Source: Halorubrum salinarum
GTDB lineage: Archaea > Halobacteriota > Halobacteria > Halobacteriales > Haloferacaceae
Direction: 5' to 3'
Length of the DNA: 64,000 bases
NCBI RefSeq assembly: GCF_013267195.1
Contig: NZ_CP053941.1
Coordinates: 682,001 to 746,000, forward strand
The translations under genes were made by a program, and so were the position numbers. The notes below the pieces were generated by a model. That model made no database searches and was not told where the DNA came from. It worked only from the letters and a program-made list of their open reading frames with translations. Positions 23,316 to 38,982 of the stretch are shown here, piece by piece; positions within the stretch are counted from its first letter, which is position 1, and every line of letters begins with the position of its first letter.

Positions 23316-24293
23316 TCACTTACGGTTCGACGGCGGGGAGGGTCGACCGTTAGTCCGGAGTGTCGGTTTTGAGAATGGGTTCCACGGCGTCGACGCTTCG
23401 ATGTCCCGGAACTGTTTATCACACGAGGGGCACGACGCCTCCGACAACATCGACAGATCGACGGTCATGTCGCAGTTTTCGCAGCGTCCGGTATCGATTC
23501 CCTTTCGGACCGCCTGCTTTCGGAGCGTGTCGAGCGCCTCGCGGTCCTGTTTGGCGTCAACCATGGTATCGACGGAACTCGAAAGGTCGGTCACCCGGCC
23601 GTCAAACTCACGAACCGTATCAAGGATTTGGCTAAATAGGGCCTCGATCTGATCGAATTCCTCGTCGATCCACGTCTCGAACTCGGCTTGCGTCTCTTCA
23701 ACGTCTTCAAGCCTCGCTTCGACGGAGTCGATTCGGTTTGCTAAATCGCCGTCATCCTGATCCACGCGAGATTCGAGCGACTGGATCTCGCTGTGAAGCC
23801 GGGTCACGTCGTCGGAAAGCCGGTCAGTAAACTCCTCTTGTCTGGATCGCTGCTGCTCGACATCGAGCGAGAGGTCAGCGACCTGCCGTCGCATCTCGGC
23901 GACCCGTCTGGTGAGTTCGACCTCTGTCGGGCTGAGGTCATCTCGAGGGTCGAGGTCGTCCGGGCTGATTCGGTCTCCCGACTCCGAGTCCGATGAATTC
24001 GGTGTGGACGCCTCGTTGCTGCCCGGCGTCTCCGTTTCAGACGGCGCATCGTTCTCGGTTGGTCTCCCCCGAGGCGGGTTCCAATCTTGGTCCTTCTCTG
24101 ACGCTGTGTTTCCCGGAGCAGACGCAGAATCAAGGGCGATGTCGCCCATCTCGTCGAGGGCCCAGAATGCGGAAACAAGTTGGTTCAGGAGTTCGTGTTC
24201 CGTCATACCTCGGGACTCCGCGGTGTGTTTCACCCACTGCTGGAAGGTATCGGCGTCGACCGCGGTGTCGTTTTCGTTGTCCCGAGTACCCAT
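23316..24293 (-). CDS. coiled-coil protein with C-terminal zinc ribbon
   Basis: The 325-residue acidic protein has a helical N-terminus (DTFQQWVKHTAESRGMTEHELLNQL), a disordered linker rich in S, E and P (residues about 60-110) and a long predicted coiled coil (about 115-255, VEARLEDVEETQAEFETWID). A zinc ribbon follows (CENCDMTVDLSMLSEASCPSCDKQF, about 275-299). There is no signal peptide. Related coiled-coil/ribbon proteins occur in haloarchaea, but no role is known. It lies between a DUF5658-like gene and a divergent DUF7504 gene. Confidence 0.7.
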   Translation of the reverse strand: MGTRDNENDTAVDADTFQQWVKHTAESRGMTEHELLNQLVSAFWALDEMGDIALDSASAPGNTASEKDQDWNPPRGRPTENDAPSETETPGSNEASTPNSSDSESGDRISPDDLDPRDDLSPTEVELTRRVAEMRRQVADLSLDVEQQRSRQEEFTDRLSDDVTRLHSEIQSLESRVDQDDGDLANRIDSVEARLEDVEETQAEFETWIDEEFDQIEALFSQILDTVREFDGRVTDLSSSVDTMVDAKQDREALDTLRKQAVRKGIDTGRCENCDMTVDLSMLSEASCPSCDKQFRDIEASTPWNPFSKPTLRTNGRPSPPSNRK

Positions 24294-24547: not shown

Positions 24548-25996
24548 ATGGCCGCAGCCCTCTTTTCCGTCCCGACAGCGAACCGCGTCGGAGGACGACC
24601 ACCGACAGCCATCGGCGACGCGGACCGAGCGTCGCCCGCAGACGCTTCCCCGGCAATGACTGGATCCGACGGGTCCGACGAAGAGCCCTCGGGAAACCGG
24701 TCCGATCGCGCCAGCAGGTTCAGCGAGATCGCCTCTGAGTTCTCCGACGAGTTCGACGTACAATCGGAGGGCGGCCCCGATCCAGACCGCGAGAGCGAGT
24801 CACCGGATACCGACGCCGACACAGGCGATCGAACGGGCGAATCGAACGCCGACAACTGGGAGTGGATCGGCGACGGCGAGTCCGAGGTTGCGACCGATCG
24901 AAGCCCGTCCGCGTCGCGAGCGAGCAATGCCTCAGAAGGATCGAACAGCGGCAGTCGGCTGTGGAACGGCGCGCAGATGGACGACAAACCGGTCGAGAGG
25001 GATCCGACAGACAGTGAACCGATCGGAAGTGGGCCTACAGACAGCAAACCGACTGAGGACAGACCGACAGACGACGAATCAGTCTGGGACAGTTCAACGG
25101 AGGACGACAAATCGGTCTGGGGAAGTGTAACGGACGACGAATCGGTCAAGGACAGTCCGACGGGAGGCGGCACGGAGCAGACCACGGTTGACGCGGCCGG
25201 AGCAGGATCCGAACCGAGCCCGAACAGGAGAACCGACACGACGAGCTCAGACGGAAGCACCGACGCGGCGGGCAACCGGATCTGGAACGAGAGCGTGACG
25301 GCGAAAGAGCCCTCCACGACAACCAGAACAGCTCGCGCGCCGTCAGACGGAGGCGTGTCGACTGAGTCCCCAGTGACCGACACCCCGGGAGCGCCGGACG
25401 CGTCCGGCCTCACAGAAGACGAGTCGGTCCTTGACGGTGATCGATTCGACCGCGGAACGAACGTGCTGATCCAGTCGGAGTCGCGGGCGGAACGGACCCA
25501 AGACGGCTGTCACGAGCTGCTGTTTGGGCGCGGAAGCGACCGTGATCCGTACGTGCTGCTCGTCCGCTACCAGCCGATGGACGGCGAACGGCTGGAAGGC
25601 ATCGCCTCGAAGGGGCATCGTGTCCACGTGATCTCTGTCGGGTACGCGCAGTCGGTCCCCCCCACAGCTGATGGAACGGTCGAGGTCACGCAGATCAACA
25701 ATCCGAACGACATTACCCGGCTCGGGATTGTCGTCTCGAGACTCACACAGGAGTGGTCGACCGACGACCGCGAGATACGCGTCTGTTATGACTCGCTGAA
25801 CGTCCTGCTGAACTACCGAGATGTGAAGAACGTGTTCCGATTCCTCCACGTGTTTCTCAGTACGTTCACCAAGACGGACGCCGTCGCACACTTTCACGCC
25901 GACCCGCTCGAAGGCGATCCGCAGTCGATTAACACGCTCAAGCCACTGTTCGACGAGGTCGTCTCGATGGACTCAACCGGAACGTACGTAGAATAA
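24548..25996 (+). CDS. DUF7504-type RecA-like regulatory protein with long acidic linker
   Basis: The 482-residue product has a disordered, acidic N-terminal 290 residues with imperfect short repeats built on DDESVWDSSTEDD and TDSKPTEDRPTD. Its C-terminal domain (about 295-475) matches DUF7504: GTNVLIQSES, YVLLVRYQPMDGERL, ITRLGIVVSRLTQEW, FRFLHVFLSTFTKTDAVAHFHAD. No Walker A motif is visible, so ATP binding is doubtful. The start is uncertain: an ATG at 24501, about 30 bp after a TATTATAAAACTA-type box, lies in another frame that ends after about 50 codons, and a later ATG at 24656 is also possible. It is the first gene of a rightward pair with DUF5305. Confidence 0.7.
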   Translation: MAAALFSVPTANRVGGRPPTAIGDADRASPADASPAMTGSDGSDEEPSGNRSDRASRFSEIASEFSDEFDVQSEGGPDPDRESESPDTDADTGDRTGESNADNWEWIGDGESEVATDRSPSASRASNASEGSNSGSRLWNGAQMDDKPVERDPTDSEPIGSGPTDSKPTEDRPTDDESVWDSSTEDDKSVWGSVTDDESVKDSPTGGGTEQTTVDAAGAGSEPSPNRRTDTTSSDGSTDAAGNRIWNESVTAKEPSTTTRTARAPSDGGVSTESPVTDTPGAPDASGLTEDESVLDGDRFDRGTNVLIQSESRAERTQDGCHELLFGRGSDRDPYVLLVRYQPMDGERLEGIASKGHRVHVISVGYAQSVPPTADGTVEVTQINNPNDITRLGIVVSRLTQEWSTDDREIRVCYDSLNVLLNYRDVKNVFRFLHVFLSTFTKTDAVAHFHADPLEGDPQSINTLKPLFDEVVSMDSTGTYVE

Positions 25997-26049: not shown

Positions 26050-27168
26050 GTGAGCGACATCGATCGATCACTCCGGATCCGCGCCTTCTTACAGAAGTGG
26101 TCGGGCGTCCTCCTTGCTCTGCTCCTCATTCTCGCCGCAGTCGGCGGGTGGTGGAGCTATCAGGTCCACGCGACGCAGGAAATCGAACGTGAACAGGTCA
26201 CCGTCGAACAGTGGAGCGAGTCGACGGCGTACGAACACAGCGCGGTGATCACGAACGACTCCCTCGTGTTCAATGAGGGGGAACGCGTCCGAGACCGACC
26301 GGTGTACTACGTGAATCTATCTAGGGAACTCGACGTGACGTACGTGTACGAACACACGGCCGAGACCGGCTCGGTGAACGTCACCACCGATGTCCGGCTC
26401 CAGTACCGCGGGGTCGAGGGAGAGACAGTGCTCTGGCAGTACGCCGAGCCGCTGGCAAGCGGCCAAGACGAGGGGGTTACGAACGAGGACAACCACACCG
26501 TTGACGCGGCCGTAGAGATCGAGTCTGTGTTCGAGACGATCCGAACGATCGAACAGCAGCTCGGCGTAGCCGGAACGATAGAGATCCGGATCGTCGCGGT
26601 GTCGTCCGTCGAGGGGACGCTGGGGGGGCAGTCGGTGAGCGAGACCTACGAGAGCACGATGCCGATGACGGTCAACCCGCAGACGTTCCGCGTGCTGGAG
26701 ACGAACACCGTCGACGAGCCGGGCCAGCAGACGGAGACGGTCGAGCGCCCGGTCGATCCGGGGACAGTTGAGGCAGTCGGGTCGATCCTGCTTGTGCTCC
26801 TCGGTGCCGGCGGCGCTTTGGGTCTAGTTTTCGCGCAGCGGAGCGGGTATGCCACCGTTTCTCCCGAAGAGCGTGAGATTCTGGAGATCCGACAGCAGGA
26901 ACAGGAGTTCTCCGAGTGGATAACCAATGGGACGTTCCCGTCGGAACGCGACTACGAAGCGACAATCCTCGTCGACGACTTAGAGGGGTTAGTCGACGTC
27001 GCGATAGACACGAACAAACGCGTCATCAAAGACGAGCAGCTCGGGGTGTGTACGGTCCTCGACGGCGAGTTCGCGTATTTGTACGTCCAACCAGATTCGC
27101 CCGCGAGCGACTGGCTCGTCAACTACGCCGACATGACAATGGACGAGTTCCAAGAGTTCGACTTCTGA
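26050..27168 (+). CDS. DUF5305 family membrane protein
   Basis: The 372-residue product starts at GTG (VSDIDRSLRIRAFLQKW). A membrane segment (residues about 15-38) is followed by a large extracellular domain (about 40-250), a second membrane segment (IGS-ILLVLLGAGGALGLVF, about 252-272) and a C-terminal cytosolic domain with LVDDLEGLVDVAID and ASDWLVNYADM. This is the DUF5305 layout. Such proteins often occur with SipW-like signal peptidases in haloarchaea (my recollection, not a search), and here one lies 8 kb away. It follows the DUF7504 gene by 53 bp. The role is unknown; an assembly or anchoring function for surface proteins is inference. Confidence 0.8.
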   Translation: MSDIDRSLRIRAFLQKWSGVLLALLLILAAVGGWWSYQVHATQEIEREQVTVEQWSESTAYEHSAVITNDSLVFNEGERVRDRPVYYVNLSRELDVTYVYEHTAETGSVNVTTDVRLQYRGVEGETVLWQYAEPLASGQDEGVTNEDNHTVDAAVEIESVFETIRTIEQQLGVAGTIEIRIVAVSSVEGTLGGQSVSETYESTMPMTVNPQTFRVLETNTVDEPGQQTETVERPVDPGTVEAVGSILLVLLGAGGALGLVFAQRSGYATVSPEEREILEIRQQEQEFSEWITNGTFPSERDYEATILVDDLEGLVDVAIDTNKRVIKDEQLGVCTVLDGEFAYLYVQPDSPASDWLVNYADMTMDEFQEFDF

Positions 27169-27190
27169 GGGCGCCCGCAGCGGGTTGGAC

Positions 27191-28237
27191 TCAGGGACGA
27201 TCGCCCTCGATCACGCTGTCCTCCGTTTCGACCTCAACTTCGCTGCCGCCGCGAGCGTCGACGGTGAGGTCGCCGCGGATCGCGCTGCCTTCCATCTCAA
27301 CGCCGACCTCGCTGCCGCCGCCTGTGGTGATCTCGGTGTCGTCGCCGATCTCGCTGTTTTCCATCGAAAGAGCGACTTCGCCGCCGCCCCCGAGAGTCAT
27401 GGAGACGCCACCACCGATCTCGCTGCCTTCCATCGAAAGGGCGACTTCGGCACCGCCCGGCGTCTCGATGCGGACCGCGCCGTCAATCTGGCTGTTCTCC
27501 AGGGAGAGGTCGACCGAGACGCCGCCGCGGATTTCGATCCGGAGGTCGCCGCGGATCCGACTTCCTTCGAGCTCGACAGACACCTCGCCACCGCCGCCGA
27601 GCGTGACAGTAGCATCGCCGTCGACCGTGCTTCCCTCGGCCTCGATCGCGACATCTCCACCGCCTCGGAGGCCGACGTCGATACAGGGCACCGTCTCCGA
27701 CTCGAGTCCGATCTCTGGGCCGGTGAGACACGACGCCGCAGCTTCACACGTGACCGAGGTGGAGCGGGCCAGCTCCACCGATGCGTCGCGGTCGCTCGTC
27801 GCCGCGCGGATTCCGATCTCCACGTCGTCGGTGGTGTCGGATGAACACGATAGCTCCGCGGCGATGTCCGTCGCCTCGCCCGGCCCGAGCGTTCGTTGGC
27901 CGATATCGAGATCGCTCCGACCGATCCCGAGCGACCCGGACGAGCGCACGCCGACGCGGTCGAGAACGAGCGTTTCGTCGAACCGGTTCGTGAGCGTGAA
28001 CAGTCGCACCGTCCCGCCCGAATCGCCGGTGGGATCAGCCGGCTCGATCCCGAGCAGGGCGTTCTCGTCGGCGGCGGTGGCGACGCTGAACTCCCGGTCA
28101 CCGGCAATCGACGAGAACGCGCCGGTACCCTGGACGCCGGCGGCGCCGCCCGCGCCAACCACCAACAGGCCGAGGACGGCCCGACGGCTCACGCGATCGC
28201 CATCGTCTCCTCGACTGCGTCGGCGTTTTCGTCCCAT
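27191..28237 (-). CDS. secreted TasA/DUF1102-like protein with six 23-residue repeats
   Basis: The 348-residue product begins MGRKRRRSRGDDGD then RRAVLGLLVVGAGGAAGVQ and GTGAFSSIAGDREFSVAT. This twin-arginine, glycine-rich signal with a GTGAF boundary is of the SipW-cognate/TasA (DUF1102) type. Residues about 50-165 are an Ig-like domain (LFTLTNRFDETLVLDRV). Residues 204-341 are six exact 23-residue repeats, each like EIGGG-VSMT-GGGGEVALSMEN-S (a strand-turn pattern of a beta-solenoid). It ends shortly after the last repeat. The ATG at 28237 is preferred; longer starts are possible. It is convergent with DUF5305. Confidence 0.8.
   Translation of the reverse strand: MGRKRRRSRGDDGDRVSRRAVLGLLVVGAGGAAGVQGTGAFSSIAGDREFSVATAADENALLGIEPADPTGDSGGTVRLFTLTNRFDETLVLDRVGVRSSGSLGIGRSDLDIGQRTLGPGEATDIAAELSCSSDTTDDVEIGIRAATSDRDASVELARSTSVTCEAAASCLTGPEIGLESETVPCIDVGLRGGGDVAIEAEGSTVDGDATVTLGGGGEVSVELEGSRIRGDLRIEIRGGVSVDLSLENSQIDGAVRIETPGGAEVALSMEGSEIGGGVSMTLGGGGEVALSMENSEIGDDTEITTGGGSEVGVEMEGSAIRGDLTVDARGGSEVEVETEDSVIEGDRP
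27215..27628 (-). repeat. six tandem 69-bp (23-codon) repeats inside the TasA-like gene
   Basis: The six units encode residues 204-341 of the protein at 27191-28237. Each has 23 codons with a glycine-glycine and an E-V/S-V block and ends in ENS, EGS or EDS; DNA identity is lower than the protein pattern. The regular length fits a coil-per-repeat beta-solenoid fold, resembling bactofilin or other polymer-forming rod domains in periodicity only. Inference: a stalk or polymerising rod. Confidence 0.75.
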
Positions 28238-28439
28238 GTTGACCCCCGTCAATTGACGTACCGTCACTAGCCGCGCGAAGGTTTCACCCCTCTGTCGGTG
28301 GAGAGTGGACCTACATTCGGCTAGTGTCGATCTATCAAATAGTTTGTCCTGTGGACGTATAGTATTGCTGTGCTTTCGCGGGCGACAAACGGCAAATGCT
28401 AAGTGGCGTCCAGAAGCAAGATCCTTCTGGCTACAGCAC

Positions 28440-28985
28440 TCACGGCGGATCCTCGATATCGCCAAGGCGATACCGCCGGTTCTGGATCACCTGTGCGACA
28501 GAGGACGCCAGGAACACCGCGATGATAGCCGCCGTCCACCCGAGCGCCGGGACCGTTTCTGTCGGGACGAACCCGGACCAAACGCCGCCGAGGACGACAA
28601 CGGATAGCAGCGAGAGCCCCAGGTAGTAGACACCCCACGGGATCGAGCCTTCGGGAACGACGTCGAGGTAAACGTCGAGTGTTTTGGCCTCCTCGGTGAG
28701 TTCGATTTCGTCGCCGTCGTAGTCGATCATTCCCGCGTCGGCCAGCCGGTCAAGATGGGTCTGCTGGAGTGAGGTGTACACCCGCTTGCGCTCTGCGGAG
28801 GTGAGTTCGGGGACGGACTTGTCCTGCTCGCGCGCAGCCACCATCTCCGCGAGGTCCGACAGAGTGAGCGGCTCATCGGCTTGCTTACAGAAGTGGATCA
28901 CGTATCGCCGGCGGTGGTTGCTCAATAGGTCGTAGAGCTCGTCTTTTTCAGGGGGTGTGTACTCCCGCTGGTCGGTTATTGACAT
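28440..28985 (-). CDS. DUF7344-type winged-helix protein with membrane segments
   Basis: The 181-residue product (from the ATG at 28985) has a winged-helix domain (residues about 12-105). It shows YDLLSNHRRRYVIHFCKQADEPLTLSDLAEMVA, then LTSAERKRVYTSLQQTHLDRLADAGMIDYD, which is the DUF7344 pattern. Two membrane segments follow (about 120-140 and 145-165). A tethered transcription regulator is likely. The frame is open 57 codons further upstream to a TTG at 29156 near a TATA-like AATTATAC; the longer form would add an arginine-rich leader. Its position among the secreted subunits suggests it regulates them; this is inference. Confidence 0.75.
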   Translation of the reverse strand: MSITDQREYTPPEKDELYDLLSNHRRRYVIHFCKQADEPLTLSDLAEMVAAREQDKSVPELTSAERKRVYTSLQQTHLDRLADAGMIDYDGDEIELTEEAKTLDVYLDVVPEGSIPWGVYYLGLSLLSVVVLGGVWSGFVPTETVPALGWTAAIIAVFLASSVAQVIQNRRYRLGDIEDPP

Positions 28986-29202
28986 CAGTACACCCTCTTC
29001 GATGTCAGCTGAGCCCAATCGAGCGAGTCGTTCGTCTGAGATACCGCCGTCATCTCCGGACCTCTCGTGCGTCAGTCCCGGGGATCGTAAGTCGTCTGGA
29101 GACCCGCGCCCATCCAACCTCCGGGAGCCGACGTATGCTCCCACACATACTGTCAAAGGAACTGACGTGATTCAGTATAATTATTCGGGTCTCCGCGCGA
29201 AC

Positions 29203-29793
29203 TCACGCGAGTCCAAGCGCGCTCGCGACCGCGTCGGCGTCAGCGATGTCGATCGCTGCGGCGTCCTCCCGGAGCGATCGGAATCGCTCGATGTGACCGT
29301 TTATTATGTCGGCGTCGGCGCCGTCGTGGGCGGCTCGTGCGGCTGAGAGTGCGGCGTCGGTTGCGTCCGCCTGAAGTGCCGTCTCGTCAACCGCCGTTTC
29401 GCAGAGATCGACCGCCTCGTTCGCGTCGATCTCCGTCGCGAGGTCGACAGCCTCGGCGAAGCAGTCCTCGGCACTTACAAAGTTTGAGAGGGCGGTCTCG
29501 ATCGCGTCGATCGCATCGGTGTACGCCTCCTCATTGAACGCCGAGATACCCTCGTCGCGCGCAGCTACTGCGTCGTTACGGGCGGTTACCGCCTCGTCGT
29601 ACGTGACAACTATCTCACGGGACTGTGTATTACCATCTGGGCCCGTTCCGGGTAGTTCCTCGTCATCCTCACCGAGACAGCCGGAAACGAGAGTGCTCGC
29701 TGTCGCAGCGATTCCGAGAAGGTACTGTCGTCGACTGGTGCGTGATCGTGATCCTCTGTCGTTGTGTTGGAACACATCAAGTGAGACGATCAA
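29203..29793 (-). CDS. Tat-type lipoprotein
   Basis: The 196-residue product has SRRQYLLGIAATASTLVSGCLGED (residues about 18-42), a twin-arginine signal with lipobox VSGC. A helical alpha-rich domain follows (DEAVTARNDAVAARDEGISAFNEEAY). The C-terminal two thirds consist of alanine-rich helices resembling a four-helix bundle. It is probably membrane-anchored outside the cell. No family recognised. The true start may be at a later ATG, since the first 15 residues are not signal-like. Confidence 0.7.
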   Translation of the reverse strand: MIVSLDVFQHNDRGSRSRTSRRQYLLGIAATASTLVSGCLGEDDEELPGTGPDGNTQSREIVVTYDEAVTARNDAVAARDEGISAFNEEAYTDAIDAIETALSNFVSAEDCFAEAVDLATEIDANEAVDLCETAVDETALQADATDAALSAARAAHDGADADIINGHIERFRSLREDAAAIDIADADAVASALGLA

Positions 29794-29842
29794 TTCGAAC
29801 GGTTTAGTACTGAGAGCGATGTCGTGGGCAGCCTGCTGGTTA

Positions 29843-30574
29843 TTAGTTGGTCGTCGTTAGGTCAGTTTCCGTTCCGACGACGATCTCCTGAACGAGCGTC
29901 GTTTTGGCTCGACTTTCCACGTCGAACGGGTTCCCGCTCGGATTTGCCGCCTGATTGATAGCCTTGACAACCGGATCTGGTGCGTCGACGACGAGATCGA
30001 TTGCTAACGTCGCACCGGCCGGGATCTGCTTGTAATTTTGGGGGGCGTCTGCTTGGCTTGAGCTCCCGGGGGAGATGTCGGTTCCGTCATCGCTGCTGAT
30101 ACCATTTGAGTCAGTTGTGTTTACTTGAAAACTGTACATTCCCTGAACCTGTTTTTCAGTGACTTGACCGTCTCCAGCGGTTGTGTTATCACCGTCGACG
30201 ACGATGGTGCCGAACGTGCTAAATCCGAACCCCACACTGACGGGCTCCGTACCGTTGTTTTCGACGTCAAGCAGATGAGTCAACGACTGGTTAGAGGCGC
30301 TGTTACGCGTTGCCACGTTGACATTTAGACTATCACTTTGCGTGTCACCCGTGACGTGCGCCTGCGGGAGGTCACTGGCGTCCGAGATGCTGATTCCGGT
30401 ATCCCCTTGATCGTACTCGGTGCTACCGCGGGTGACGTTCAACTCTTGAACGGTATACACTTGGAACGCAGCGGTGCTCGCGCTCGTACTTTGTAGTGCT
30501 GCCGACGAGAAGACCGCACCACTCCCTGTTGCCAACGCTCCGAGTCCGACGACCATGCTGCGTCGCTTAACCAT
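29843..30574 (-). CDS. secreted TasA/DUF1102-like protein (Thr/Ser-rich subunit)
   Basis: The 243-residue product starts MVKRRSMVVGLGALATGSGAV then FSSAALQSTSASTAAFQ, a twin-arginine and glycine-rich signal like the other TasA-type proteins here. The body has alternating strands (LTHLLDVENNGTEPVSVGFGF, GAT-LAIDLVVDAP). Asparagine and serine are unusually frequent. Homology to DUF1102 is by resemblance of the signal and the LDVENNGTEPV core. It is separated from the next subunit gene by about 240 bp. A fibre or biofilm subunit role is inference. Confidence 0.65.
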   Translation of the reverse strand: MVKRRSMVVGLGALATGSGAVFSSAALQSTSASTAAFQVYTVQELNVTRGSTEYDQGDTGISISDASDLPQAHVTGDTQSDSLNVNVATRNSASNQSLTHLLDVENNGTEPVSVGFGFSTFGTIVVDGDNTTAGDGQVTEKQVQGMYSFQVNTTDSNGISSDDGTDISPGSSSQADAPQNYKQIPAGATLAIDLVVDAPDPVVKAINQAANPSGNPFDVESRAKTTLVQEIVVGTETDLTTTN

Positions 30575-30818
30575 GTGGCTTCCACCTACTCGTTTACTGT
30601 AGGGGTGTCCACTTAGTATTAATTCACCTGAAACGTTTGAAGGGCTGGCCTGAACCGGAACGCAACTTCCAGATACGGTTCAAGCAGGGCTTGATAGCTG
30701 AAAAAGAGTCCTCAATTCGATATACAGAGGCCTGATAGCTCTCATCGACCATCGAACATGAGTTGAGGTATCACGCATCCACCGACGAATCCGGTCCGAT
30801 CCTCTCAGCGATCGGTCA

Positions 30819-31382
30819 CTACTCCTCGACCGCAGAAATCTCCAGCGTGACGCTCGACTCCTCGGGAAGTTCTACAAGGTCGCCGGGTGCTTCGTCGGGG
30901 ATCAGGTTCACGACCATCCCAAAGGACACCGTGTCGCCGGCGTCGAAAGTCTGGTCAGAGTCAGCGAGGAGGGTCGTCCGTCCTTGCGCGTCCGTCTCCG
31001 TCGGCTCGTCGGCGGAGACGGCCCGAAGCGTCTCCGCGACCGCTTCGCTCGACTGGTTCGGATTGTCACCGGATGGCGAAAACGAGAAGGCGAGTCGGTC
31101 GTACGGCACATCGCCGTTGTTCGTCACCTCAATGAGTTCCTCAAATCGGGAGATCGCTCGCTGGTTCAGCTGTTCGATCACGACTGCCTCGACCTCGCTG
31201 TCGTCGTCAGTCCTGACGTACTCCTCGCCCGCGCGGCCAGGGCTTAAGGAGAGCTCCGAGGAGACGACCACCCGCAGATCCGCGGCCGCGGTCGTGCCGG
31301 AGAGGAACGATGCAGAGCTGACGACGGCACTACCGAGCGCCATCGAGGCGAGGCCGAGCGTGGTCTGTCGTCGCGTGGGCAT
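30819..31382 (-). CDS. secreted TasA/DUF1102-like protein
   Basis: The 187-residue product from the ATG at 31382 begins MPTRRQTTLGLASMALGSAVVSSASF then SGTTAAADLRVVVSS, the TasA-type signal. The domain has ISRFEELIEVTNNGDVPYDRLAFSFSP (a TNNGD strand-turn also seen in its relatives) and ends DLVELPEESSVTLEISAVEE. Twelve extra codons upstream (MSSEQQPPLRTT) are possible but add nothing to the signal. It is divergent from the subunit gene at 31599, so the intervening 215 bp probably holds two promoters. Confidence 0.65.
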   Translation of the reverse strand: MPTRRQTTLGLASMALGSAVVSSASFLSGTTAAADLRVVVSSELSLSPGRAGEEYVRTDDDSEVEAVVIEQLNQRAISRFEELIEVTNNGDVPYDRLAFSFSPSGDNPNQSSEAVAETLRAVSADEPTETDAQGRTTLLADSDQTFDAGDTVSFGMVVNLIPDEAPGDLVELPEESSVTLEISAVEE

Positions 31383-31598
31383 CGTGGTTCGGAGCGGAGG
31401 TTGCTGCTCGGACGACACTTCGTCGCTCGACCGCTTTGTATTGAGGGGCTTTCCGCAGTGACCGCGGGAGCCCGGAAATGTTCCACTTGTTCAGCCCCCG
31501 CGATACGCGGTTCAAGGGCACCGATACCGCAGTTCGGACCGGTACTCCGGTGGTTCAAGCAACTCAATACAAAGTGGGTAAAGCCACATATAGAAGAC

Positions 31599-32177
31599 AT
31601 GGCAAGCAGACGCAGCGTCCTGATCGGATTAGGTAGTTTAGTTGCGGGCGGCGGCGCAGTCCTTGGTACCGGTGCGTTCGATACAGTGACGGCACAGCGG
31701 ACGGTTTCGGTCGAAACGACCGGCGACGCAAACGCGCTGCTGGCGCTCACACCCGTTGACGACGACGGCCCGTACGTCGACGACTCGGGCGACACGATTC
31801 AGCTCACGCTCGGCGACGCGGACGGGAACGGACTTAATCAAAACGCCGTGACGACGTTCGACGAACTGGTCAGCATTACAAACAACGGAACACAGACGGT
31901 CGACTCGATCACCTTCACGATCGACGTGACCGGTGCGGGATCCGATGAGGCCAACACAGATCACGAAGAGGCGTTCGGCATCGTCGCCAACGGTGAGACG
32001 ATTGCGGCGACGGGAGACACGAACATCCTCTCTGACGACTACTACGACACGAGCCTTGACAGCGGAGAGGCCGTCAACTTCGGGGCCGAAATCGACCTGC
32101 TCAACGGCGACATCTCGGATCTCACAGACGGAGCGACATTCAATCTCACGATCAGCGCCGAGGCGACCGACAACTGA
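31599..32177 (+). CDS. secreted TasA/DUF1102-like protein
   Basis: The 192-residue product starts MASRRSVLIGLGSLVAGGGAV then LGTGAFDTVTAQRTVSVETTGDANALLAL, a classical SipW-cognate signal (GTGAF boundary) followed by a DUF1102 core. The core shows TTFDELVSITNNGTQTVDSITF and VNFGAEIDLLNGDISDL. Twin arginines occur at positions 4-5. Known TasA-like proteins form extracellular fibres after cleavage by SipW. It is the first of two rightward subunit genes. Confidence 0.85.
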   Translation: MASRRSVLIGLGSLVAGGGAVLGTGAFDTVTAQRTVSVETTGDANALLALTPVDDDGPYVDDSGDTIQLTLGDADGNGLNQNAVTTFDELVSITNNGTQTVDSITFTIDVTGAGSDEANTDHEEAFGIVANGETIAATGDTNILSDDYYDTSLDSGEAVNFGAEIDLLNGDISDLTDGATFNLTISAEATDN

Positions 32178-32235
32178 GTGGCGTTGGTCCTTCCGGACCT
32201 CGGTGGGCGCAGGGATCCAGTTGGACTGACTCCTA

Positions 32236-33252
32236 ATGCCAACCAGACGCACAACGGTTATCACGCTTGGAACGCTCCTCGCCGGCGGCGGCGCGGTCCT
32301 CGGCACGGGCGCGTTTGACACGATCGAGGCCGAGCGGTCGGTCTCGCTGGAGACCGCCCCCGACTCCAAAGCCCTCCTCGCGTTCGAAATCATCGACGAC
32401 GAACACGTTAGCCAAACGAGTGGAACGATCGACTTCGACCTGATCGCTAGGGCGACCACGGCGTTTCGAGAGCTCGTGAAAGTCAGGAACAACGGGACGC
32501 AACCCGTCACCTTGCTCCGCTTCGAGTTCGATGTCACCGGCGGCGATCAGTCCCCAGGCGACGTCGAGGACGCCCTCCGGATCGTCTCCGGCGATGCGAC
32601 CATCGACGCGGTCAACGAGGCGAATCTCCTCGCGATAAGCGACGCGGGTGACGCCGGAAACAACGAGCTCTCGCCGGGGGAGGCAGTCCCGTTCGGGGTC
32701 GAGGTCGACCTGACCGGCGACGTCACGGAGATCACCGGCGACCCGGAGATCACGCTGACGATCGTCGCTGACACGGGCGGCGAGAGCGAGACTGGCGATG
32801 GCAACGAAAGCGGGGAAGGCGATCCCGAACCCGGACCCCCTACCTTCGGGTACGTCGAGGGACCGAACCGGGACCCGTCGGACACGCCGTCGAGAAGCCT
32901 GACGTTCACCATCGAGAACACGGGCGGGGCGACGACTGTCGTAGGGTTCGCAGTGGATATCGACACTCCAGGGAACAGTCCGTCGCCCGGGGTATTCGAT
33001 GGATTCGAGATTGAGCCGGCCGCGGCCGGCGAGCCAACGGTGGACGAGAGCAGTACGGACGACGACCTCGCGGTCGGTGAGGACATCGAACACGCTGGCT
33101 ACGTGATCCCATCCGACTCGACCGCCGCGTACACAATCGAGACGTTCGACCGCGATCCGTCGCAGAACGGCGAGCTGTCCCTCAGGGTGTTCACGACGGG
33201 AGGAGCGTTTTCCCTCCCGCGGACTGGGTTCGAGTCGCTCGGGAACGCGTAG
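32236..33252 (+). CDS. secreted TasA/DUF1102-like protein with extra C-terminal domain
   Basis: The 338-residue product starts MPTRRTTVITLGTLLAGGGAV then LGTGAFDTIEAERSVSLETAPDSKALLAF, nearly the same signal and first strands as the gene before it. The N-domain (about 30-180) has TAFRELVKVRNNGTQPVTLL. After an acidic linker (EGDPEPGPP, about 193-205) comes a second domain (about 205-338) of immunoglobulin-like strands (LTFTIENTGGATTVVGFAVDIDTP). It lies 58 bp after the previous gene and probably belongs to the same operon. A cap, anchor or minor subunit is possible. Confidence 0.85.
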   Translation: MPTRRTTVITLGTLLAGGGAVLGTGAFDTIEAERSVSLETAPDSKALLAFEIIDDEHVSQTSGTIDFDLIARATTAFRELVKVRNNGTQPVTLLRFEFDVTGGDQSPGDVEDALRIVSGDATIDAVNEANLLAISDAGDAGNNELSPGEAVPFGVEVDLTGDVTEITGDPEITLTIVADTGGESETGDGNESGEGDPEPGPPTFGYVEGPNRDPSDTPSRSLTFTIENTGGATTVVGFAVDIDTPGNSPSPGVFDGFEIEPAAAGEPTVDESSTDDDLAVGEDIEHAGYVIPSDSTAAYTIETFDRDPSQNGELSLRVFTTGGAFSLPRTGFESLGNA

Positions 33253-33327
33253 AGGGGTCGTCGTTCCGTGGTCCGCCGATTCCCTCGGGCTTATGACGCC
33301 GACGCCGCAAACCGGGATACGAATCGG

Positions 33328-34272
33328 ATGGTCCGCGAGGCCGACGCGACGGTTTTGATAATCGAGGACGACCGCGAGCAGGCCGAGGAGTACGCCGACT
33401 GGCTGGACGACTACGACGTCCGGCTGGCCGCCGGCGAGCGCGCGCTCGACGCGCTCGAGGAGGTCGACGTGATCCTCCTCGACGGCGACCTCCCCGACCC
33501 GCCGGCAGCGGAGCTGCTCGGCCGGATCCGCGCGCGCCGGCAAGACTGTCAGATCGGGCTCCTCTCCGGCGTGAGCGTCGGCGACGATGTCCTCCGTCTC
33601 GACATCGACGAGTACGTACCGCGACCGCTCGACCGCGACGAGCTCCGCGAGACGGTCATACGCCTCGTCGACCGCGGCGCCGTGTCGGACGCGATCGAAA
33701 CGTACCTTTCGCTCGTGGCGCGGCGGCGACGGGTGGAGCGACGGAAAGACGAGACAGAGTTAGCAGACGACGAGCACTATCAAGAGCTGACGGGTGAGAT
33801 CACCGGCCGCCGTCGGCAGATCGACACACTGCTCGCTGAGATCGACGATTCAACTGCGAGACGGGGGAACGGCGAGGACGAACCGCGCGTCGCGTCACGG
33901 GTCGCGGACATCGAATCGGCGGACCCCGCTGTCGGTCGAGCGTTGTACCGGACTCGTCCCCGTGAGTTCTACGCACTCTGGTTGCTCGCCGCACTCACCT
34001 ACGGCGTGGGCGACGTCGTTTCAACGCTGTACGCCACCCTTGCCGTTCCAGGAGCCATCGAGGGGAACCCCATCGTCAGCGGGCTGTTGAGCGCCGGCGG
34101 ACTCCCCGGATTCCTCCTGTTGAAGCTACTCGTGTTGTTCGTGTTGATCTCTATCAGCGTCCAAGGCGCGCGACAACGCGAACGGTTCTCGTACTACTGG
34201 CCGCCGGTCGTCGCAACCGGGATCGGACTGCTGCTCACCGGCTGGAACCTGCGGCTGGCAATTGGCATGTGA
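33328..34272 (+). CDS. response receiver with HalX domain fused to a membrane domain
   Basis: The 314-residue product starts at the ATG at 33328. Residues 6-110 are a receiver domain with acidic pair D13-D14 and phospho-site D52 in VILLDGDLP. The usual switch lysine is replaced by R99 (YVPRPLD). Residues about 115-175 are a HalX-like helical domain (VARRRRVERRK, YQELTGEITGRRRQIDTLLAEID). From about residue 205 to the end is a membrane domain with four segments (LLAALTYGVGDVVSTLYATL, GAIEGNPIVSGLL) like the DUF5658-like protein at 22.7 kb. I do not know this fusion from haloarchaea; the signal direction is unknown. Confidence 0.8.
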   Translation: MVREADATVLIIEDDREQAEEYADWLDDYDVRLAAGERALDALEEVDVILLDGDLPDPPAAELLGRIRARRQDCQIGLLSGVSVGDDVLRLDIDEYVPRPLDRDELRETVIRLVDRGAVSDAIETYLSLVARRRRVERRKDETELADDEHYQELTGEITGRRRQIDTLLAEIDDSTARRGNGEDEPRVASRVADIESADPAVGRALYRTRPREFYALWLLAALTYGVGDVVSTLYATLAVPGAIEGNPIVSGLLSAGGLPGFLLLKLLVLFVLISISVQGARQRERFSYYWPPVVATGIGLLLTGWNLRLAIGM

Positions 34273-34293
34273 TTGTTGTGGACTACGGACCGT

Positions 34294-35478
34294 TCACCGC
34301 CACCGTCGAAGTATCCGCCGGATGCGATCAGAAAGCGATAAGTCACGCTTTCGGTCGCGGAACCGAAACGGCGAGAGTCCAACGGCAGACACATACACTG
34401 CGGTAACCATGGCGATGATAACCGCGTTGATCGCGACGACGGCGACAAATGGATGAACCGAGTGAAGCGAAAGGATGACCGACGCCGGAAGGAACTGGAC
34501 ATACTGCCACTCAGAGACGGACCTGACGTATGCGCCGGTTTCTGCTGGGGCGTGGAGCGTGACCGTAGTCGTGGCTGTCTTCCCCCGCTCGGCCACGAGA
34601 GAGTTCTGTGCGACATCGACGCCTGTGCTTGCCGCGTCCACGACCGCGATTCGGGGGATAGGTCCATCGTTGGTGAAGTTGTACGTGTACTCGACGGAGC
34701 CCCCCTGCTCGATAACAGTCGGGTCAGAACTTGGTGTCTGTGAGCTCACGATCGTAATGTCGTTCGTCCCTGAGGGAATCACCATGCTCGCTGTTGCCGG
34801 TATAGCGATGAGAAGGAGGATCGCGATCAGCACGACTACGGCGCTCGTCTCGCTACGCCGTTCGTGCGAACGATCTTCGCGGCCCTGCCGACGGTTTCTT
34901 CCGCCGACGGCCTCGGCGGCGAGGCTGTACCCCAAGAGCAACAGCCCGACGAGCACCATCGACGAGCCCACGTCGCCCTCGGCTAGCCCACCCAGTCCAG
35001 GAACACCGGAGAGAGCCGAAGAAGCCGCCGAGAAAGCGCCTTGGATTGCCAACACGGCCACACCAATTCGCGGAATGACAACGACATCGCCGCCCACCTG
35101 AAGGGCGACCGCTTTAATCTGTGAATCCTGAACCGGTGGTTCGGGGCCATCCTGATCGGTGAACGGATTGGCGTCACCGCGCGTGATATATCCTTGTTCA
35201 GTCTCATCAACAATCCGGTGTGTCGTCAAGCCGCCTCCCTGAAGCTCCTGCGCCTCAAACGTCACGACATCGTCTTCGCCGATATCACCGGCGAGCGCTG
35301 GTGGCACGGCGATGAATCCATCGCCGGGCGCCATGTTCGCTGGCTCAGCGTTCATACTGCCGGTCAGTACGAACCCGAGCACGATCGGCTGGCCAAGCTG
35401 TTGGCCGACGAGCATGGCGACCACGAGGACGACGAGGAGGGCCGTCACACCGGATCCGGCCAGCGATCGGAGATTCAT
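34294..35478 (-). CDS. SipW-like signal peptidase I with a fused extracellular domain
   Basis: The 394-residue product has an N-terminal membrane segment (residues 11-27) and the S26 signature. Nucleophile S41 lies in LTGSMNAEPANMAPGDG, H87 in GGGLTTHRIVDE replaces the lysine of bacterial type I enzymes, and acidic GDANPFTDQD follows (about 101-110). The serine-histidine arrangement is the archaeal/ER/SipW type. A second part has membrane segments near residues 175-195 and 215-235, a folded extracellular domain (about 240-330) and a final membrane segment (about 345-370) with a basic tail. It probably cleaves the neighbouring GTGAF-type signals; this is inference. Confidence 0.85.
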   Translation of the reverse strand: MNLRSLAGSGVTALLVVLVVAMLVGQQLGQPIVLGFVLTGSMNAEPANMAPGDGFIAVPPALAGDIGEDDVVTFEAQELQGGGLTTHRIVDETEQGYITRGDANPFTDQDGPEPPVQDSQIKAVALQVGGDVVVIPRIGVAVLAIQGAFSAASSALSGVPGLGGLAEGDVGSSMVLVGLLLLGYSLAAEAVGGRNRRQGREDRSHERRSETSAVVVLIAILLLIAIPATASMVIPSGTNDITIVSSQTPSSDPTVIEQGGSVEYTYNFTNDGPIPRIAVVDAASTGVDVAQNSLVAERGKTATTTVTLHAPAETGAYVRSVSEWQYVQFLPASVILSLHSVHPFVAVVAINAVIIAMVTAVYVSAVGLSPFRFRDRKRDLSLSDRIRRILRRWR

Positions 35479-36384: not shown

Positions 36385-37353
36385 TCAGTCGTTCGGTACA
36401 GACCGATCCTGGTGTGTTTCTGTATCTTCAGTCGGGTTCCTCGTGTCGGTGCGAACGATGTCCACAAACCGTGCCGCCGTCTTTGCTGAAAGCTGATCAC
36501 GAAGCCGTTGGATCAGGTGTGTTCGGCGCCGGACCTCCGTTTGGCTAACCGCACGAACGAGCGAGAGCGCACGACGGAGTTGAGTCTCCTGCCACGACTG
36601 CTCACGGGCTTCATACGTACGAATGGCCCGGGCAAATTCGACTTTACTGAATTCTGGCCAATACGGTGTACAAAAGTAAACGGCGGCCTCATTGCCGCTC
36701 GCATGCCACGGGAGGAAATTTGAGGTGCGTTCGTCTCCGCCAGTTCGGATAACTAAGTCGACATCCTGAACGGGCTGCTGATACAATTGCTCGCCGATCA
36801 TCTCTGCCGTGATTTCCTCCGGTTTCAATTCACTATCCGCAACTTGTCGTGTGAGCCGCTGTGCTGTCCGCAACAGTTCATTTCGACCGCCGTATGCTAA
36901 AGCGATGTTCAGTTTGAGTGTGTCGTACTGTTGGGTTCGGTCTTCAGCGTACGCAACCGCATCGACCACGCGGTCGGGAAGCCGTTGGATTTCACCTAAT
37001 CCGTGTATCGAGACCTCGTTATCATGAACCAGGTCAGCATCCGCAAACGAATACAATCGGTCCTCAATGAGATCAAAGAGGTCAGTGAGTTCCTCATCTG
37101 GTCGTGCAAAATTCTCTGTTGAGAAGGTGTACAATGTGACTTCAGTAATATCGAACTCGGAACACCAATGTAGCATGTCTTCAGTGGTCTCCGCACCGTG
37201 AGCATGCCCATCTGACGGATCAAGACCTCGTTCACGGGCGTACCGCCGGTTTCCGTCCTGGATCACAGCAACGTGATCTGGTGTCAGAGCAAGTGACTGC
37301 TTAATCTCGCCAATATAGATGTTGCGAAGCCACTGTCTCGCCCGCTTAAACAT
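36385..37353 (-). CDS. uppS: cis-prenyltransferase (undecaprenyl/polyprenyl diphosphate synthase family)
   Basis: The 322-residue product matches the UppS family, which makes the long isoprenoid carriers used for glycan transfer. It has VAVIQDGNRRYARERG (residues about 29-44, catalytic D), HGAETTEDMLHWC, TLYTFSTENF, RTGGDERTSNFLPW with the family arginine, and YWPEF. Length is somewhat above bacterial enzymes because of a C-terminal helical tail (about 265-322). The start at 37353 gives MFKRARQWLRNIYIGEIKQSL, the usual archaeal start, and a TATA-like TTAATTAAC lies about 30 bp upstream. Haloarchaea normally also carry a core copy elsewhere; this one has island-like composition. Confidence 0.9.
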   Translation of the reverse strand: MFKRARQWLRNIYIGEIKQSLALTPDHVAVIQDGNRRYARERGLDPSDGHAHGAETTEDMLHWCSEFDITEVTLYTFSTENFARPDEELTDLFDLIEDRLYSFADADLVHDNEVSIHGLGEIQRLPDRVVDAVAYAEDRTQQYDTLKLNIALAYGGRNELLRTAQRLTRQVADSELKPEEITAEMIGEQLYQQPVQDVDLVIRTGGDERTSNFLPWHASGNEAAVYFCTPYWPEFSKVEFARAIRTYEAREQSWQETQLRRALSLVRAVSQTEVRRRTHLIQRLRDQLSAKTAARFVDIVRTDTRNPTEDTETHQDRSVPND

Positions 37354-37746
37354 TTTGTGTGAGTATACCTCATCACGTGTGTTAATTAAGGTGTTCACTT
37401 GACATGGTGCGGCGGAGAATTACCGTACCCTGTGTGCTCACGGCTGATGCTGGTCGTCTGTGAGGCGAAACTGCCTTGCTCCAGTACGATTACGTCCCTG
37501 TCCATTTCGAAGTCACGGTAGAATACGGGGATGTCCACACAGTCACATCGGCCTCGCTGTCGAAATACAGACTCACCGTCGTTTGAAAGTGGAGGTGTAG
37601 CGCCGTATTCAGCTCAGACCTGAGATTCAACAGGAAGTGTATGGCTTCAGGAGTTCAGGCCGAAGCTAGTGGGCTTTCACCTCGCTACCGTGAACACAGC
37701 CACAGTTCTGTGGGGCCGACGCGAGACGCATGAAGATGCGAGCCAA
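37354..37746. other. intergenic region, possible decayed gene, nothing supported
   Basis: Roughly 390 bases between uppS and the ABC permease genes. One leftward stretch (about 37500-37650) reads open for 55-60 codons but lacks a start and any family resemblance. Composition is near the local average. It may hold a remnant of an older gene. No RNA or repeat seen. Confidence 0.4.
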
Positions 37747-38982
37747 TTAATTAATCAAGCCGCGAGCGGACGTCACACGAGTAACACGCCACACTCCCAA
37801 GATTCCTCCAAGCAGTGCGAATCCACCAGCAACAATTCCACCAGCAACGTAGGCATACCCTGGCACCTGGACGAGTCCCTCGAATCCGGTCACAGTAAAC
37901 GCAAGCTGGTCAAGGGCAGCCGCAAGCGGCGGGGTAAAAGCGATGCCCAGAAGATATCCTCCGAAGGCAATACTGACTGCTTGGACGATCGCAATACCAG
38001 CAATACCACGCCGAGTTGCCCCAGTGGCACGGAGCACAGCAAACGGTTTGCGCTGGATGTACACTAACGATAAGAGCAGATTCAATGCGAGCATCCCACC
38101 AGCAACTACACCTAACACCACAAGGCTCGTACCGGCAGCGAGTACAACCGCCTGCTGTTGGAGTACTTCGACGAACTGCTCTTGATTCGTGCGGAATGTA
38201 TACTCGGGATATGCGGTGGCAAGGTCTTTCCGAACGGCCTCGCGGTCGGCACCGTCGACAGTGCTGATGGTAATCAGGGTTGCGCTATCATCATACGCAT
38301 TACCAGTAAGCGTCTGGAGTTCGCTCAGCCGCAGGGTAACAGTGGATGTCCCCAAGAAATTCGAAAAAGTGGGCGAGACCCCCACAATTTCGAACTCGTG
38401 AGCGCGGGCACTCGCAATGGTCCCACCGACGTGGATGGAATCTCCGACAGTCACGTTGTGTTGCGCGGCAAACTCAGGCGAAACCAGCGCTTGATGAGTG
38501 AAATTCCCGCTGTAATTGCCATCAGCGTAGTGTGTATTTGGACCAGTAAATCCCTCGCCGGCTGTTATGCGGACGGAACCACCTGCTCCTGGTGTTCCGC
38601 TGCCAACAATCGTCTCGAACTCTTCACCGTCAGTGCTGACGTAGACAACTTGGAATGCCAGTGGGACTGCTGTTTGGACATCCTCGTGTTGTTCGATCTG
38701 TGTAGCGACTGTGTGTGCGTTTGGAACTGGATTTTGGAAGCCGCCAACAGAGCCGGGCGCGAGATTGATTGGACCGCCGGTAACCCACAGATCACGGTCT
38801 GCTTCGTTGAATAACTCATTTCCAGTTTCGGTGACGCCCGTCCCAACACCAGCAAGCAGGGTCACAGATAAGACGGCAAGCGCAATACCGATGACAGCAA
38901 GGACAGTTCGGGTTTTATCCCAGCGTAGCTGTCGAAAGGCAATCCATATCTGCCCGAAAATCTGTCTGAGTCGTGTGTTCAT
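37747..38982 (-). CDS. FtsX/MacB-like ABC transporter permease
   Basis: The 411-residue permease has an N-terminal membrane segment (residues about 25-47), a long extracellular domain (about 48-255) and three C-terminal segments (about 275-300, 325-350 and 370-395). This is the MacB/FtsX four-helix layout. The first helix region is RTVLAVIGIALAVLSVTLLAG, as in LolE-like permeases. The upstream permease and ATPase genes overlap each other, and this one overlaps the middle gene by four bases. It probably acts in a complex that moves or pulls on surface proteins or lipids. Confidence 0.85.
   Translation of the reverse strand: MNTRLRQIFGQIWIAFRQLRWDKTRTVLAVIGIALAVLSVTLLAGVGTGVTETGNELFNEADRDLWVTGGPINLAPGSVGGFQNPVPNAHTVATQIEQHEDVQTAVPLAFQVVYVSTDGEEFETIVGSGTPGAGGSVRITAGEGFTGPNTHYADGNYSGNFTHQALVSPEFAAQHNVTVGDSIHVGGTIASARAHEFEIVGVSPTFSNFLGTSTVTLRLSELQTLTGNAYDDSATLITISTVDGADREAVRKDLATAYPEYTFRTNQEQFVEVLQQQAVVLAAGTSLVVLGVVAGGMLALNLLLSLVYIQRKPFAVLRATGATRRGIAGIAIVQAVSIAFGGYLLGIAFTPPLAAALDQLAFTVTGFEGLVQVPGYAYVAGGIVAGGFALLGGILGVWRVTRVTSARGLIN

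Follow-up and report, generated by a model that had tools for sequence, protein, structure and literature searches.

We analysed a 64 kb stretch of the Halorubrum salinarum genome (NZ_CP053941.1; hereafter the window, whose positions are used for all coordinates) and found that one gene cluster within it probably encodes a divergent haloarchaeal twin-arginine translocation (Tat)-fimbria (tafi), and we put the probability of this assignment at about 85%. We read the cluster in this way because its five candidate subunits match Taf protein families, because an above-cut-off taf locus in a related genome has the same neighbours, because the profile of one subunit finds the solved tafi pilus 9P0A and its predicted fold finds related fibres, and because subunits, peptidase, and DUF5305 co-occur across genomes. 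The taf genes are the “Tat-fimbriae” (tafi) of Galeva et al. 2025 (iScience 28:111793), as cited in PMC12687288, and this later, citing article describes tafi components as exported by Tat, with TafA as the core. An earlier note made from the sequence of this stretch had proposed a multi-subunit haloarchaeal TasA-like fibre; that class of system is supported by our analysis, and its kind is already known as tafi, with a solved relative. Since the tafi class and its fold are already published or deposited, the news for the class is limited, and what is new here is a divergent variant, the link between DUF5305 and the peptidase, and the conserved machine versus the variable fibre.

Five candidate subunits with Tat-type signals

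Five genes of the cluster encode the candidate subunits, which we call S1 to S5. S1 occupies the TafC slot (27191..28237, minus strand; NF052521 TafC, E 1.5e-21, residues 2-150), S2 is a divergent Taf-like protein (29843..30574, minus; TafE, E 5e-4), and S3 is TafE-like and a proposed adaptor or base (30819..31382, minus; TafE, E 4.3e-7). On the plus strand, S4 is TafE/TafA-like and the proposed main fibre subunit (31599..32177; TafE, E 6.5e-20; TafA, E 5e-12), and S5 is a TafE-like putative minor subunit with a second C-terminal domain (32236..33252; TafE, E 8e-17). Searched with the NCBIfam models for the TafA, TafC, TafE, and TafF fimbrial proteins, all five thus matched TafA, TafC, or TafE at E 1.5e-21 to 5e-4, every match being below cut-off, and no cluster protein in the window matched TafF. 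The sub-cut-off scores therefore place the proteins in the wider tafi class and not among the TafA/C/E/F equivalogs. TafE-like matches in the whole genome number five, all of them inside the cluster.

As the earlier note had observed, twin-arginine, glycine-rich signals begin all five products and three of them have a GTGAF boundary. The signal is (S/T/K)RR followed by a glycine/alanine-rich stretch in 5/5 subunits, and judged by motif (RR, then a hydrophobic stretch) it is of Tat type in each; GTGAF is present in S1, S4, and S5. Within the window, only the open reading frames (ORFs) of these three hold RR, 12-45 residues, and G[TS]GAF, for which residue shuffling within ORFs gave 0.035 expected hits. 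The mature domains of S1-S5 were mutually homologous in profile searches with the signals removed, the link to S2 (29843) being the weakest, and S5 matched 9P0A at E 3.6e-11. In S1, an extended basic n-region, the Tat signal, GTGAF, and a pilin-like domain are followed by ~7 repeats of 23 residues (autocorrelation 0.49 at lag 23 residues). A tRNA-Leu(cag) called by ARAGORN inside the S1 gene (28070-28164, minus) was rejected as spurious, having no Rfam match and being absent from three related loci.

A related, probably Haloarcula-like genome connects the cluster to tafi by its neighbours. At the locus labelled L104, genes for TafF, TafE, TafA, and TafC, all above cut-off, share 7 kb with a DUF5305 gene and with homologues of the 28440 winged-helix gene and the 34294 peptidase gene, so that L104 and the window have the peptidase, winged-helix, TafC-type, and DUF5305 genes in common. 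The window cluster resembles tafi (Natrinema 9P0A, TafA-TafF) in its homologous subunits, RR signals, matching fold, TafC-slot protein adjoining the winged-helix gene, and peptidase and DUF5305 neighbours, but it differs in gene order, in having a repeat rod rather than LamG in the TafC slot, in lacking a TafF match, and in its additional REC-HalX, lipoprotein, DUF7504, and coiled-coil genes.

Fold of one subunit and comparison with known fibres

The mature domain of S4, the one subunit of five that was modelled, was predicted from an alignment of 70 mature domains and gave a beta-sandwich with a mean predicted local distance difference test score (pLDDT) of 84; its first 11 residues, the putative donor strand, were unordered in this monomer model (pLDDT < 50). 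Against PDB sequences, the best match of the S4 profile was 9P0A chain C (E 1.1e-19), an entry titled “Structure of Natrinema sp. J7-2 Tafi pilus” for which a literature search found no structure paper, and neither 8aur nor 5of1 was among the profile hits. Foldseek ranked the Pyrobaculum bundling pilus 7ueg first (E 4.8e-4, prob 1.00), with FimA next and the TasA fibre 8aur at rank 6 (E 7.1e-3, prob 0.72), which is weak for TasA itself, and VIA Z values were 8.4 for FimA (122 residues), 8.1 for 9P0A (root-mean-square deviation 3.1, 122 residues), and 7.7 for 7ueg. Structure prediction thus bears out, for S4, the TasA-like fold that the earlier note had expected. Because 9P0A has GTGAF at 24-28 and 188/215 of its residues are modelled, its mature chain probably starts at F28, and by analogy the window subunits may be cut between GTGA and F.

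Known fibre systems share some of these features and depart in others. Bacillus TasA/camelysin proteins and SipW are similar in their Ser-His signal peptidase (the SipW model is matched at 5e-11 by the orthologue from L104), similar signal boundary, and related fold, but the window has RR (Tat-type) signals and DUF5305 and winged-helix genes at the locus, and none of its proteins matched the TasA/camelysin families in Pfam or NCBIfam. The Pyrobaculum pilus, the best Foldseek match of S4, is only 12-15% identical and has another locus and signal type, with several subunits present in the window. Chaperone-usher pili supply the highest VIA score through self-complemented FimA, and no chaperone or usher family was found among Pfam matches of the cluster genes and flanks.

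Peptidase and DUF5305

The Ser-His signal peptidase reported by the earlier note was confirmed (34294..35478, minus). It is a membrane protein of SipW/archaeal type with an extra external immunoglobulin (Ig)-like domain, its TIGR02228 match (43.1 bits, E 4e-11) lies below the cut-off of 51.85, and the L104 orthologue passes that cut-off at 68.1 bits. S41, H87, D102, and D108 are invariant in 15/15 aligned sequences, and the predicted catalytic residues are Ser and His (not Lys) with a conserved Asp. The C-terminal external domain gave weak Ig-like Pfam matches in relatives, and its profile found only unrelated designed or receptor proteins among PDB sequences.

The DUF5305 membrane protein (26050..27168, plus; PF17231, E 5.7e-52) was modelled at pLDDT 89.5 as a helix, an external beta-sandwich, a second helix, and a small internal domain, and the hits of its fold search were all generic sandwiches of Ig-, transglutaminase-, or arrestin-like kind that point to no function. 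The whole genome has one DUF5305 gene and a single close peptidase relative, both in the cluster.

Signal peptidase and DUF5305 genes also stand together in several other euryarchaeal genomes (L199-L208), and near one such pair (L207) is a protein with GTLAYFSDTE, a camelysin/TasA-like boundary. A non-haloarchaeal genome of the same phylum (G425:C2; L206, 7762-13443) has a complete tafi-like locus, with DUF5305, peptidase, three Taf-like subunits, and a winged helix; its subunit signals are without RR, which suggests that Tat export may be a haloarchaeal change.

Conservation across genomes

Of the 243 genomes surveyed from the order, 157 have TafE-like genes, 168 have DUF5305, and 166 have the peptidase; 152 have all three and 68 have none. 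Pairwise Fisher tests gave p of 6e-41 to 8e-49, values that overstate independence because the genomes are related by descent, and the presence and absence of subunits, peptidase, and DUF5305 clearly go together. No more than 12 kb separates the peptidase from DUF5305 in 97/103 genomes compared, and among 80 peptidase-centred loci, 71 had subunits, 70 DUF5305, and 63 the winged helix. The joint conservation of peptidase and subunits in other haloarchaea that the earlier note had predicted is therefore seen in these 152 genomes. DUF1102 (PF06510), which the earlier note had named alongside SipW and DUF5305, matched none of the window proteins in Pfam and nothing in a search of the own genome, although 24/70 relatives did match it (best 9.9e-10).

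A genome scan recovered loci like that of the window from Halorubrum trapanicum, H. halodurans, and H. californiense, among others. This locus type, marked by a receiver-HalX-membrane protein and often by a small Tat-type lipoprotein, comprises the window and six further Halorubrum genomes with subunits (L119-L122, L125/L140, L129), together with two remnants (L123, L124), a Natronomonas bin, L126, and genome G043. Other Halorubrum have another locus type, with a peptidase ~45% identical. In the peptidase tree, the window's type falls with Natronomonas and G043, which belongs to another family (support 92/90), apart from ten other Halorubrum, although the fork is open and some branches are long. 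Both locus types adjoin in Halorubrum sp. GN11 (L125, 1675-13952), where the peptidases are 36% and 83% identical to that of the window. The remnants, from H. laminariae and H. salinum (L123 10001-12204 and L124 10001-12169), keep only peptidase and REC-HalX, with no subunits, winged helix, or DUF5305 within 10 kb either side. The contig behind L126 (PULR01000059.1) is labelled “Mollicutes bacterium” and carries a haloarchaeal tafi locus of the window's type, so that it is probably mis-binned or mislabelled.

The fibre proteins diverge faster than the machinery. Mean identity between Halorubrum loci of the window's type was 80-87% for peptidase, winged helix, and DUF5305 versus 54% for subunits, and in the other locus type 67-85% for the machinery versus 46%. 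Mean subunit identity was below peptidase identity in 130/130 locus pairs, which are not independent and in which best-match pairing may join non-orthologous subunits. S3, the most conserved subunit (68-84% identity between loci of the window's type), is the exception, which would suit a base or adaptor, and S5 is missing from the H. trapanicum locus. In most loci, a TafC-type protein stands beside the winged-helix gene and combines a pilin-like N-terminal domain with a variable C-terminal part. At L104 and L105 that part is a LamG lectin, several other loci have a bactofilin- or FapA-like solenoid there, and single ones gave a beta-helix or a filamentous-haemagglutinin match. Such variability suggests that this slot may hold an exchangeable tip or decoration.

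Proposed mechanism and alternative explanations

From gene content, homology, fold, and co-conservation, we infer a mechanism in which the Tat pathway would export S1-S5 and the membrane Ser-His peptidase would then cleave their signals at the GTGAF boundary. The mature subunits would be TasA/AbpA/FimA-like beta-sandwiches and would assemble as a thin fibre in which each N-terminal segment, once freed, most likely acts as a donor strand that completes the sheet of a neighbour. Within this fibre, S4 would be the main subunit, S3 the conserved adaptor or base, and S2 and S5 minor subunits, and we propose that the repeats of S1 form a beta-solenoid-like rod by which it serves as tip or decoration. 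DUF5305 and the peptidase with its Ig-like domain, a conserved membrane pair, may serve as the platform for processing and assembly, which is the least certain step of the scheme. Control of expression or activity probably lies with the proteins that we propose as regulators by domain type (winged helix, REC-HalX, DUF7504, and coiled coil).

Several observations weigh against this assignment. No subunit reaches a Taf cut-off, the best bit scores being 77 vs 410 for TafC, 72 vs 155 for TafE, and 46 vs 190 for TafA; S2 and S3 lack GTGAF, the presumed cut motif; the structural matches score moderately, level with other beta-sandwiches (VIA Z 7.7-8.4); and no specific fold match backs the roles given to DUF5305 or the Ig-like domain of the peptidase. 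The strong divergence of several subunits from one another (S2 above all) and their large extra domains or rods would also suit a set of separate secreted surface or matrix proteins of camelysin-like kind, served by a dedicated peptidase and either released or anchored, with no single mixed fibre. We consider this unlikely, given the synteny and homology with taf loci and the close relative that builds the pilus 9P0A. Still less probable, in our judgement, is that the cluster is a decaying or silent copy, i.e., a formerly working tafi locus in the course of losing its subunits, for which the two Halorubrum species that keep only peptidase and REC-HalX provide a precedent; in the window, by comparison, every cluster gene is an open reading frame, and over its full length the machinery shares 73-90% identity with that of relatives.

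Within the favoured tafi assignment, we tentatively consider a further, modular possibility that we would not yet expect to hold in full. Here, a conserved platform (the peptidase with a chaperone-type Ig-like domain, and DUF5305) would assemble interchangeable, fast-evolving subunits and carry swappable TafC-slot tips (LamG lectin, bactofilin-like solenoid, or 23-residue repeat rod), the window's subtype would be under membrane-tethered receiver control, and subunits might vary to evade viruses or mark kin. Conserved machinery versus fast-diverging subunits and exchangeable presumed tips is the pattern expected if viruses or neighbouring cells exert pressure. More broadly, the cluster would connect DUF5305, a Pfam family of unknown function, and the Ig-like-domain peptidase with fibre assembly in most haloarchaea and also outside them, and the link between the two offers a direct knockout test of usher-less fibre building.

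Regulator-type genes, accessory genes, and flanks

The remaining genes named by the earlier note were likewise present at or very near the positions it gave, and its gene limits hold except that S1 is best started at ATG 28237 rather than as a longer ORF, that the cluster extends upstream to 23316, and that a lipoprotein gene also belongs to it. The winged-helix protein (DUF7344; 28440..28985, minus; PF24035, E 9.1e-28), a proposed regulator, has two C-terminal membrane helices, with transmembrane-like segments at 114-132 and 144-162. The REC-HalX fusion (33328..34272, plus; HalX 5.4e-10, REC 1.7e-8) ends in a hydrophobic region with a DUF5658-like match below cut-off (2.8e-3); its gene is present in all loci of the window's type, and we propose that it is a membrane-tethered receiver protein with a regulatory role. 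The small secreted Tat-type lipoprotein (29203..29793, minus), recognised by an SRRQYLLG signal and an SGC lipobox and probably accessory, has relatives in five Halorubrum/Natronomonas loci of the window's type.

Upstream lie a DUF7504 gene (24548..25996, plus; PF24336, E 1.1e-38), whose relatives are near DUF5305 in 15/80 loci, and a gene for a coiled-coil protein with a C-terminal zinc-ribbon-like segment (23316..24293, minus; weak coiled-coil and zinc-ribbon matches only), whose relatives adjoin DUF5305 in Haloferax, Halobellus, and Natronomonas loci. Because relatives of both adjoin DUF5305 elsewhere, we take the cluster to extend to 23316. Base composition gave no sign of recent import of the cluster (GC 61.6% versus 62.3% for the window), although the peptidase tree sets the window's type apart from other Halorubrum. 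The downstream flank (36385-38982) is ordinary, holding an undecaprenyl-diphosphate-synthase-like gene and a MacB/FtsX-type permease, and in both H. trapanicum and H. californiense the permease borders the locus too.

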